Below the pieces are notes generated by a model. The model searched no databases, was not told where the DNA came from, and was given only the letters and a program-made list of their open reading frames with translations. Of a stretch of 64,000 nucleotides of DNA, positions 32,594 through 38,667 are shown piece after piece (within the stretch, counting starts at the first letter, position 1; every line of letters begins with the position of its first letter). Origin of the DNA: Phenylobacterium montanum (GTDB lineage Bacteria > Pseudomonadota > Alphaproteobacteria > Caulobacterales > Caulobacteraceae). The translations under genes were made by a program, and so were the position numbers. Location of the stretch: NCBI RefSeq assembly GCF_018135625.1, contig NZ_CP073078.1:3380501-3444500 (forward strand), given 5' to 3'.

Positions 32594-32606
32594 GGGTAAC
32601 TCAAAA

Positions 32607-32631
32607 CCCCTCCCCCCCCTTGCGGGGAGGG
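32607..32631. repeat. GC-rich palindromic intergenic repeat, likely terminator
   Basis: A strong hairpin between the convergent rph and XRE genes: CCCCTCCCC-type arm, TTG-containing loop and GGGGAGGGG arm. The same kind of sequence recurs at 32696-32715 and 41967-41989. It resembles the short C-rich palindromes scattered between genes in Caulobacteraceae and may act as a terminator for rph. Confidence 0.6.
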
Positions 32632-32695
32632 GTTGGGGTGGGGGGAGTCAGCGCCCAAGTCGGCCGAAACTGAGGTTCACCCCCATCCCCTGCCC

Positions 32696-32715
32696 CTTCC
32701 CCGCAAGGGGGAAGG
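32696..32715. repeat. Second GC-rich palindromic repeat
   Basis: CCTTCCCC, GCAA loop region and GGGGGAAGG form a second hairpin just beyond the XRE stop codon. It pairs in style with 32607-32631, giving a tail-to-tail pair about 65 bp apart, as REP-like elements often occur. It may terminate the minus-strand XRE transcript. Confidence 0.6.
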
Positions 32716-32719
32716 AATT

Positions 32720-33613: not shown

Positions 33614-33748
33614 TCACGCGCCGAACAGGTGGCTGGCGGAGATCATTTGCGTCATCGAGGGGGCGGCCGCGAACAGGACGGCGGTCAGGCCGATGGCGGC
33701 GGCGATGTTGGCGGCGCGTTCCAGGGTCTTGAGGAAGGAAGTGGTCAT
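33614..33748 (-). CDS. Small single-helix membrane peptide (44 aa)
   Basis: A short frame reading MTTSFLKTLERAANIAAAIG and ending MISASHLFGA, with one hydrophobic segment at about residues 12-31. ATG 33748 has GGAG 8 nt upstream, a good site. A longer frame to 33865 has no such support. It lies 110 bp before DUF2975 on the same strand and downstream of an inverted-repeat pair, so it may be the first gene of the XRE/DUF2975 operon. I do not recognise a family. Short length keeps confidence modest. Confidence 0.55.
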   Translation of the reverse strand: MTTSFLKTLERAANIAAAIGLTAVLFAAAPSMTQMISASHLFGA

Positions 33749-33845
33749 GTGGGTCTCTCCGTCGGATTTGTGCACCGCAGCGAAGATCCGGACCATTCCG
33801 ATTTCGCCTTGGTTGTCTGGGGGGCGTTGACGCCCTCTCCATGGC

Positions 33846-33896
33846 GATAATCGATACGCCCACATCGTTTTTCGATCAAATTACATATCGATTATC
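33846..33896. promoter_or_regulatory. Paired 10-bp inverted repeats, possible XRE operator
   Basis: GATAATCGAT (33846-33855) and its exact inverse ATCGATTATC (33887-33896) are separated by 31 bp in an AT-rich stretch, about 100 bp upstream of the small membrane peptide gene. Each copy contains ATCGAT. The position suits an operator-promoter of the peptide/DUF2975/XRE cassette. Binding is inferred only. Confidence 0.42.
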
Positions 33897-33933
33897 AATA
33901 TTACATTTTCGCAATGCAAAAATGACGGCGCTT

Positions 33934-34049
33934 TGGGAAGGATCATACGGATTGACTACGGCCCTGACGGTTTATCCGTGGCTCACAGAAATTGTCACCG
34001 ACCCTGAATTTTCATTCCAGGGGTGTGGGGGTATTTTGTTGTTCTAGCG
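33934..34049. repeat. Left inverted-repeat arm
   Basis: Left 116-bp arm of the element. Its inner end runs through GTGTGGGGGTATTTTG and ends at CTAGCG. Reading inward it offers a GTG-initiated frame (VWGYFVVLAQPIG) that stops soon after the arm ends. Confidence 0.85.
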
Positions 34050-34176
34050 CAGCCGATCGGATAGCGCCGAACGGCAACTTTCTGCGCGGGACCCAGAGGT
34101 CGAAAACGACCCAAGGCGGAAATGGAAGCCGACGCTATGTAAGCTCGAATATCCTATAAAAAAGAAGGGGCGGATT

Positions 34177-34386
34177 GTGGTAAGGGGTAGCGCAAACTCA
34201 GATGTGATCATCCTATTGGCGAGTATATTCTTGCTGGCAAATTCTGCTTTTAGTCTGATAATGGGCAGTATTAGTTTTCCCTATAGGTCTGTGAAGCGAT
34301 CCGAAAGTCCTTTTTTATTTTGGATCTATTTTTTTGCTCAGACGGCATTGGGTGTGGCGGGATTGGCAGTTTATATTGTGCGGTAA
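34177..34386 (+). CDS. Small hydrophobic protein inside the inverted-repeat element
   Basis: A 69-residue frame from GTG 34177, preceded by GAAGGGG about 7 nt upstream. It has two hydrophobic segments, about residues 9-33 (DVIILLASIFLLANSAFSLI) and 46-67 (FLFWIYFFAQTALGVAGLAV), joined by a basic loop (YRSVKRSES). It would be a two-helix membrane protein with both ends on one side. The segment is strikingly AT-rich compared with every neighbour, suggesting a foreign origin. I recognise no family. Confidence 0.45.
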   Translation: MVRGSANSDVIILLASIFLLANSAFSLIMGSISFPYRSVKRSESPFLFWIYFFAQTALGVAGLAVYIVR

Positions 34387-34559
34387 GGCGGCCGCTCCCC
34401 AACCGGAAGCAAGCTGTCCAGTTGTATGCCTTCGTTTCGAGGAAGCGTTATCACCGTTGCGGCCTCTGACGGCCGAATAAACTCGGCTCGTTCGGCCGCC
34501 GCTTCGTCACCTGCCGGCAAGACGAGTACCGCCGCTAGGACAACAAAATACCCCCACAC
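34371..34559 (-). CDS. Short secreted-like frame starting within the right repeat arm
   Basis: A 62-residue GTG-initiated frame whose first eight codons lie in the right repeat arm. MWGYFVVLAAVLVLPAGDEA looks like a signal peptide or anchor; the rest (from ERAEFIRPSE to PPYRTI) is polar. The left arm holds the same start codons but is fused to different, quickly terminated sequence. It overlaps the 3' end of the opposite small gene by 16 bp. It could equally be chance; no family recognised. Confidence 0.3.
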   Translation of the reverse strand: MWGYFVVLAAVLVLPAGDEAAAERAEFIRPSEAATVITLPRNEGIQLDSLLPVGERPPYRTI

Positions 34560-34648
34560 CCCTGGAATGAAAATTCAGGGTCGGTGACAATTTCTGTGAG
34601 CCACGGACAAACCGTCAGGGCCGTGGTCAATCCGTATGATCGTTCCCA
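34533..34648. repeat. Right inverted-repeat arm
   Basis: Right 116-bp arm, inverse of 33934-34049 with 4 substitutions. It contains the 5' part of the minus-strand short frame ending at 34371. It is followed immediately by GCTT at 34649-34652. Confidence 0.85.
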
Positions 34649-34851
34649 GCTTACTGTGGGGCATTAGCCGTTGTCACTGGCCGGTAGCCGAGGGCCCACG
34701 GCAACACCGAGCGTCCCCGCTCGCCTGCGGACCGCCCGACGCCCAGGCCCTCTACTCGCCAAGCTCACAAGGCCCGAAAGGTCGCACGACCCCGGGCCAG
34801 ACTTCGGGGAAAGACCAAGGAGTGAGGCCGGGGCCGGCCACCCGAACGGGT
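34649..34851. other. Intergenic stretch between the repeat element and the DUF1348 gene
   Basis: GC-rich sequence without a supported gene, RNA or strong hairpin. It separates the inverted-repeat element from the 3' end of the DUF1348 gene and may be the remainder of an interrupted region. Confidence 0.5.
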
Positions 34852-35322
34852 TCAGAATCCAAGATCGCTCAACGATGGATGATCGTCCGGGCGCCGGCCC
34901 AGCGGCCAATGATATCTGCGCTCACTCTCATGGATGGGCGCGTCATTGATGGAGGCGAAGCGGCGGCGCATGAGGCCGTGCGCGTCAAACTCCCAATTCT
35001 CGTTGCCGTAGGAACGAAACCAATTGCCGCTGTCGTCGCGCCACTCATAGGCGAAACGCACCGCCATCCGATTCTCACGAAACCCCCACAGTTCCTTGAC
35101 GAGGCGATAGTCCAGTTCACGCCGCCATTTGCGGGTGAGAAAGGCGACGATCTCCTCGCGTCCCCGCACGAACTCGGCCCGGTTCCGCCAAAAGCTATCG
35201 ACGGTATAGGCGAGCACGACCTTTTCGGGGTCGCGGCTGTTCCATCCGTCCTCGGCCATGCGAACCTTCTCGGTTGCGGTCTCCAGTGTGAAGGGGGGCA
35301 GCGGCGGCCGCTGGGTGCTCAT
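34852..35322 (-). CDS. DUF1348 / NTF2-like (SnoaL-fold) protein
   Basis: A 156-residue NTF2-fold protein of the DUF1348 type: [20 protein letters not shown] at the N-terminus, then [39 protein letters not shown] and the closing [20 protein letters not shown]. These are single-domain proteins with a ligand cavity and no agreed function. ATG 35322 overlaps the stop of the preceding fragment by ATGA, implying translational coupling. The frame upstream of 35322 is shadow sequence. It is the last gene of a damaged three-gene cluster. Confidence 0.85.
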
Positions 35323-35507
35323 TTTGGCTCTCCTGTGTCGTTGAGGCCGTTGCGAAGCGGGCGCACGGTTTCGGCGATCTCGCTTTCGGTGAAGCGATCG
35401 AATTCGCGGCGCCCTTTCAAAGCCTGCCAGATGCGGTCGGCGCCCATGCTGGCCTGCACCGCCCAGACGCTCGGCGTTACCGCGATGTCGAGAAATCCAT
35501 AGGACAC
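35319..35507 (-). pseudogene. Head fragment of a pyridoxamine 5'-phosphate oxidase-like gene
   Basis: A 62-residue frame with an excellent ribosome site (AGGAGGG just before GTG 35507). [20 protein letters not shown] and [11 protein letters not shown] match, from memory, the N-terminal 45-50 residues of PNPOx-like FMN-binding proteins of about 200 residues. After FTESE the sequence changes to [19 protein letters not shown] and stops. The flavin-binding body is missing, so this is a deletion remnant. It keeps ATGA coupling to the DUF1348 gene and may survive as a leader that loads ribosomes onto it. Confidence 0.65.
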
Positions 35508-35565
35508 GTCGCCCTCCTATCATGGCCGAGCGTGGGGTTGGCGGAAAGCCGCCAACCCCCTCTGG

Positions 35566-36045
35566 TCAGGCCGCTTCGCTGACCTTCACGACCGGAAAGT
35601 CGATGTCAGTTTCGGCGACGACGTTGAGCAGATTGGTGAAGATGTTCTCGGCGGTGACCGCGAGAATTTCCACGATCTGGGCATCGCTGTAGCCGGCATC
35701 GCGGACCGCCATGACATCGGCGTTGCTGACATGGCCGCGTTCGCGCACCACTTTGGCCGCGAAATGGACGGCGGCGTTCGCCTTCGGGTCGCCGGACCGC
35801 CCCTTGCGATTGAGGGCGATCTCCTCCGGGCTGATCTTGGCGAGGTTGAGGCCGAGATAGCTGTGTGCGGAGAGGCAGTAGTCGCAGCCATTCACCTGCG
35901 CGACGGCGAGCGCTATCCGCTCACGGGTCTTTACGTCGAGCGTCTTGCCGAGCGCGCCGTTGTTGGCGGCGAAACCCTGCAACGCGGCCGGGCTCTGGGC
36001 GATCAGGCGAAACATGTTGGGGACGACGCCGAGTTGCTTGTTCAC
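35566..36045 (-). CDS. Carboxymuconolactone decarboxylase-family (AhpD-like) protein, 5' truncated
   Basis: A 159-residue AhpD-like protein with the peroxidatic CxxC motif in VNGCDYCLSAHSYLG, and KTRERIALAVAQ and DAQIVEILAVTAENIFTNLLN typical of the all-helical fold. The first usable start is GTG 36045 (NKQLGVVPNMFRLI). In-frame codons upstream still read TALDAV, which fits relatives that begin 25-30 residues earlier, but then diverge and meet a stop at 36106-36108. So the original 5' end seems lost. The core and the active site are complete. It precedes the PNPOx fragment by 58 bp. Confidence 0.8.
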   Translation of the reverse strand: MNKQLGVVPNMFRLIAQSPAALQGFAANNGALGKTLDVKTRERIALAVAQVNGCDYCLSAHSYLGLNLAKISPEEIALNRKGRSGDPKANAAVHFAAKVVRERGHVSNADVMAVRDAGYSDAQIVEILAVTAENIFTNLLNVVAETDIDFPVVKVSEAA

Positions 36046-36157
36046 GGCGTCCAGGGCCGTGCGGCGATCGGACCCGTCGCCAAAACAGGTTCGCGTCCCT
36101 TTCTCTTAACCTTGATTTCAGCGCGCGACGGCTAGCGTCGAAACGCGGAGGGCGGAC

Positions 36158-38575
<2,418 letters not shown>

Positions 38576-38667
38576 GGCTGAAGGGATCGGAACCCCTCCC
38601 CTTGCCAGACCAGGCGGGACGCGGAACAACGGCGGCCGGACCCAAGGTTTCAAGTGGAGCGACGAGA

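Follow-up and report, generated by a model that had tools for sequence, protein, structure and literature searches.

A 715-bp element with long terminal inverted repeats in the rph–rdgB interval of Phenylobacterium montanum is most likely an orphan non-autonomous transposon

How did a short piece of DNA framed by two long inverted repeats come to lie between rph and rdgB in Phenylobacterium montanum, and to what kind of element does it belong? An initial annotation of the 64,000-nt stretch of DNA analyzed here (the window) suggested a non-autonomous transposon family that carries small membrane genes, or a collapsed insertion sequence (IS). The element is real and inserted, and it is most likely an orphan non-autonomous transposon. 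It is ordinary in kind, and somewhat unusual in the length of its arms and in that the searches found no relative of it.

Anatomy of the element and its flanks

The element spans 33934-34648 (715 bp; Table 1) and has the sharp outer edges of a terminal-inverted-repeat feature. An inverted-repeat search returns two arms of 116 nt that are 97% complementary and separated by 483 nt. The initial description of the arms as inverse copies with four mismatches and sharp outer ends was confirmed base by base: the pair differs at four positions, and identity breaks off abruptly on both sides. The window has no longer inverted repeat at spacings up to 3 kb, and arms of this kind are excluded as a product of chance, since the runner-up is only 41 nt long at 76%. 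A fold-back sequencing artefact is unlikely, since the arms of an artefact should be identical and these differ at four places. The arms exceed the usual length for small bacterial elements. The G+C content is 50% in the arms and 52% in the interior, as against 69% in the window, which gives the element a foreign-looking composition. A small CCCTG/CAGGG dyad had been seen inside each arm, and both arms indeed contain it (Table 1). The arms fold as RNA no better than their shuffled versions (z +1.09 and +0.78), and the search for structured RNA gave no Rfam match at E 1.

Table 1. Coordinates (window numbering) of the element, its parts and its context
Feature	Position	Strand	Basis
Conserved palindrome-rich intergenic stretch; context, ends just left of element	33838..33921	.	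87% to G385; 84% to G384 over 33840-33918; aligned with G384, G385, G386
GCTT, left copy of putative target-site duplication	33930..33933	.	Flank comparison
Left arm (terminal inverted repeat), starts TGGGAAGG	33934..34049	+	Repeat search and base-by-base comparison
Dyad ACGGAT...ATCCGT, left arm	33947..33979	+	
Dyad CCCTG...CAGGG, left arm	34002..34022	+	
Interior, 52% G+C, no transposase recognised	34050..34532	.	
69-codon ORF, two hydrophobic stretches, putative coding	34177..34386	+	Longest interior ORF
Right arm (terminal inverted repeat), ends TTCCCA	34533..34648	-	Repeat search and base-by-base comparison
Dyad CCCTG...CAGGG, right arm	34560..34580	-	
Dyad CCACGG...CCGTGG, right arm	34601..34626	-	
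GCTT, right copy of putative target-site duplication	34649..34652	.	Flank comparison
Context block absent from rph-rdgB interval of G384, G385, G386; not part of element	34653..38600	.	

The tetranucleotide GCTT, noticed initially on both sides, stands directly outside each end. With the ends as given, the flanks agree at length 4 only, lengths of 2 to 12 having been tried, and moving the ends by one or two bases leaves a flank match of at most two bases. From the local composition, the chance of a match is 0.0043 for four bases, 0.0058 for any length of 4-12 and 0.089 for any length of 2-12. The match is suggestive of a target-site duplication, and is not proof of one.

The locus in related genomes

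The locus carries hrcA and rph on the left, and rdgB and hemW on the right. The element is missing between rph and rdgB in three of the four genus members with which the locus was compared (G384, G385, and G386). There the rph side is followed without interruption by an HTH gene, DUF2975, a conserved palindrome-rich stretch, rdgB and hemW; the G385 contig includes only the end of rph. The palindrome-rich stretch and the rdgB match are about 80-100 bp apart in these genomes and about 4.7 kb apart in the window. In the fourth genome (G383), rph to DUF2975 is present, and the palindrome-rich stretch and rdgB were not found within the 9.3 kb examined. The arms match nothing in the four other genus members, and none of the four was seen to have the same arms in place. 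Similarity to the relatives ends at 33918-33921 (the DNA match of G386 to the palindrome-rich stretch covers 33863-33918). Judged from these alignments, the element is an insertion, since the shared sequence breaks off 12-15 bases short of the left arm.

It had been expected that close relatives would show an empty site with a single GCTT. The element is indeed absent from the interval in three relatives, and the comparison of the single-GCTT site is confined to the left side, since the DNA beyond the element's right end is not original to this place. By eye, GCTT occurs in the interval of G384, G385, and G386, 18-23 bases behind the conserved GCAATGCA as against 11 bases in the window, an agreement that is only suggestive. 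The joined outer flanks gave alignment scores of 59.5, 75, and 27 with G384, G385, and G386, respectively, compared to control scores of 52.5, 68.5, and 31. A clean empty site cannot be shown, since about 4 kb of other, relocated genes lie between the element and rdgB.

The same comparison bears on whether the arms were made by inverted duplication through template switching, whether at this site or earlier, in a donor, in which case the GCTT match would be fortuitous. Such an origin can draw on the chance of the GCTT match alone (0.4%) and on the failure to find a partner element in the genomes sampled. We consider it very unlikely: neither arm was found in the relatives whose left flank is shared with the window, so neither is native to the place, and the arms and the interior share a low G+C content.

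Two features of the left side deserve mention in their own right. The palindrome-rich stretch precedes a minus-strand ORF of 44 codons (33614-33748), whose product may be a membrane peptide, and the stretch looks like a regulated promoter. Further out, at 32603-32716, lies an intergenic repeat of the GC-rich hairpin type, of which both the own genome and G384 have many copies.

On the right, the break in synteny covers 34653-38600, and its left edge coincides with the element. In order, the block consists of some 200 bp of unassigned origin, a DUF1348 gene, a 62-codon ORF, an AhpD-like gene and a gene for a hybrid histidine kinase. The DUF1348 matches of G384 and G385 and the AhpD match of G385 are on other contigs. 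DUF1348 adjoins AhpD in three other genomes (L105, L106, and L107), and in a fourth (L108) AhpD occurs without DUF1348 in the 10 kb examined. Given these placements, the 4-kb block was probably brought to this place. The first 43-49 residues of the 62-codon ORF (35319-35507) match places beside AhpD in L105, L106, and L108, and the ORF is possibly a truncated gene. We also considered whether the block has a transposon end on its right side, or whether 4.66 kb moved as one unit, and rejected both: the best of 22 offsets matched 9 of 20 tip positions, which is at the chance level.

Contents of the interior and the search for relatives

The initial statement that the interior has no transposase holds for the ORFs scanned against Pfam, NCBIfam and PHROGs, in none of which was a transposase recognised. 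This bears on the other initial suggestion, that an autonomous IS inserted at this site and that an internal deletion then removed its transposase, so that long arms around unrelated filler are what is left. We regard such a collapse as unlikely: the interior ORFs scanned hold no remnant of a transposase, and ends of 116 nt would be out of the ordinary for an IS as well. What speaks for it is that the anatomy would be identical to that of a non-autonomous transposon and that MITEs are thought to derive from ISs by loss of the transposase (PMC5896051).

The proposal that the element carries small membrane genes is not supported. The length of its 69-codon ORF is matched or exceeded in 775 of 2000 dinucleotide shuffles of the interior, and the G+C content is flat over the codon positions (0.41/0.43/0.43). 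Nothing exceeded the curated cut-off in Pfam or NCBIfam, the best profile match being DUF167 (E 0.049; 14 bits vs. 31), and there was no match in PHROGs or PADLOC, nor in plasmids or phages at E 10. In viral contigs, 38 stretches fit a pattern made from the peptide, none of which was confirmed. In 388 family-level genomes, the ORF had three matches in addition to its own: G209 (E 6.7e-4), G214 (0.0043), and G260 (0.0064); these E values are per genome, and such matches are therefore expected by chance over 388 genomes. The best distant match, that of G209, is weak (35% over 55 residues) and shares FP..KR..P..FW, a pattern of a sort met in small two-helix membrane proteins. We regard the ORF as a possible gene.

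The interior could alternatively be the movable part of an invertible DNA switch, flipped by recombination between the arms so as to alter the expression of a neighbor. The inverted arms are long enough for homologous recombination, and three promoter-like sites were found (shuffle mean, 0.7), with matches on both strands (34234-34262 on the plus and 34295-34267 on the minus strand). The promoter-like sites are consensus matches only; no recombinase was recognised among the nearby ORFs examined, and no second orientation was seen. We find a switch highly improbable.

Further evidence on the nature of the element comes from the search for other copies. It is present once in its own genome (5.65 Mb), where the sole other match is a 54-bp stretch of the interior. 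This stretch (34068-34121), 78% like a place next to what is presumably a glmU-like gene (L004), may be a degenerate dispersed repeat. With the element and its flanks as the query, the arm search of family-level genomes proposed initially was run on 390 genomes, the own included, and gave no credible arm relative and no arm match outside the own genome. Matches were obtained in 22 other genomes, one place each and all in the interior. Twenty of them fall on 34483-34535, with one (L009) touching the first three bases of the right arm, and at least 18 of these 20 sit in a ...TGGTGSFGRRF... coding context, which we take to be that of a PseB-like enzyme. The L011 match (25 bp, 96%) runs across the beginning of a frame of 373 codons, and the L014 match lies within long open frames. 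We took all 22 as chance matches, L011 with the least certainty.

The left arm alone was sought in 398 order-, 385 class- and 239 phylum-level genomes (overlapping samples, each including the own). Other than in the own genome, it matched 0 of 397, 2 of 384 and 0 of 238, respectively. The two class-level matches, L028 (29 bp, 90%) and L029 (28 bp, 93%), were rejected: by eye they lie in reading frames (presumably pilin-like and truA-like, respectively) and have no partner arm. Plasmids and phages gave no arm match at E 10, and arm homologues were nowhere observed as single-copy flanks of a normal gene.

Exact words from near the tip were sought more widely; such patterns miss relatives with a substitution, so that the absence of arm relatives is not proven by them. 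An 18-mer matched nine contigs in a collection of 84,980 species genomes, and none is a credible relative, as the matches extend by at most six bases. In viral contigs, one 16-mer and two 17-mers matched one, one and four contigs. The only viral match of the 16-mer (L030) has 22 exact tip bases, more than expected of one match; it was rejected as a relative, since the match is internal to a helicase-like frame of 559 codons and no second arm accompanies it. The 17-mers matched L115 and L116-L119, the latter being one phage (99.9% identity). In L116 and L118, the arm is weakly matched once more (30 nt, 80%), in the opposite orientation and at a distance of about 2.3 kb, as would suit a transposon; both matches are within phage reading frames and no inverted repeat is found there, and we rejected this candidate also. 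In the own genome, seven places besides the two arms resemble the tip with two or three mismatches, compared to four for a backwards control. None of the seven extends to an arm, and the three that were scanned for inverted repeats showed no arm-like pair. The tip letters were also sought in the literature, where the matching papers were unrelated by title.

Thus, the initial idea of a family of elements found no support, there being one copy in the genome and none in the collections searched. The multiple copies of a strict MITE are likewise not seen, the element being single in its genome and its arms having no relatives in the genomes sampled. The ends shared with an autonomous IS that mark a strict mobile insertion cassette (MIC) were not found in the genomes, plasmids, phages and viral contigs searched. 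Of transposase families, rve and DDE_Tnp_1 were sought in the own genome. The rve domain had no match. DDE_Tnp_1 had two, in the identical copies of a 1621-bp repeat (L120:1331-2951 and L121:719-2339) placed about 10 kb apart in opposite orientation; the repeat has no arm-like ends and no arm in its surroundings.

Proposed mechanism and comparison with known systems

On balance, we favor a DNA transposon that has long terminal inverted repeats and, being non-autonomous, was moved in trans; it would fall within the MITE/mobile-insertion-cassette class in the broad sense. The assignment is to the broad class only, as neither the several copies of strict MITEs nor the IS-shared ends of strict MICs were seen. 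Of the initial reading, what stands is a discrete insert of low G+C content, with TG...CA ends and a flank repeat, that is absent from three relatives with the same flanking gene order; the family and the membrane cargo are not supported.

The anatomy fits insertion by a DDE-type transposase in trans, and from it we infer the enzyme and the movement. The transposase would have bound the arms by their TG...CA tips and inner dyads. The element, moved from a donor molecule, would have been joined to a 4-base staggered cut at GCTT, the repair of which would have produced the flanking repeat. Most of the interior would be filler, which may include one small membrane ORF. The partner enzyme would have been lost or never present here, and hence this copy can probably no longer move. 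IS3- and IS21-like elements come to mind for TG...CA tips with 3-5 bp duplications, and the tip TGGGAA had no tie to any family in the searches made. It appears to us quite unlikely that the arms represent a transposon family not yet described (TG...CA tips, a 4-bp target, repeats of about 116 bp, and internal dyads) that is moved entirely in trans and whose autonomous member is missing from the sampled genomes.

If the partner enzyme is found, the long dyad-bearing arms would make a clean substrate for studying how a transposase recognises unusually long ends in trans. As it stands, the element is one more orphan small mobile element and serves mainly as a marker of insertion and rearrangement in this lineage's rph-rdgB interval.

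Among known systems, Tn3 ends are about 38 bp, start with GGGG and come with a 5-bp duplication, and the ends of the element differ. The likeness to Tn3-type non-autonomous elements is that of transposon ends with variable filler (PMC4133298). MICs and MITEs are presented as non-autonomous elements moved by IS transposases, and MICs such as MIC231 of Bacillus cereus resemble the element in being non-autonomous, having no transposase of their own and depending on IS enzymes (PMC3281130, PMC6542083). The element differs from MICs in that no partner IS with the same ends was found and its passenger gene is putative. Its arms are also much longer than IS231-type ends. Prokaryotic MITEs are similarly short and intergenic, with terminal inverted repeats and no transposase, and their flank duplication has a putative counterpart in the GCTT repeat (PMC2229807, PMC10969869). 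The element is single whereas MITEs are many, and its arms are of 116 nt whereas 4-24 contiguous pairs are tabulated for MITEs (PMC2229807). Finally, the CIR repeats of Caulobacter, which are abundant, about 110 bp long and, in that tabulation, without terminal inverted repeats, differ from the single, 715-bp element in these respects, and are like it in being small and intergenic, in having dyads and in belonging to the same bacterial class (PMC2229807).
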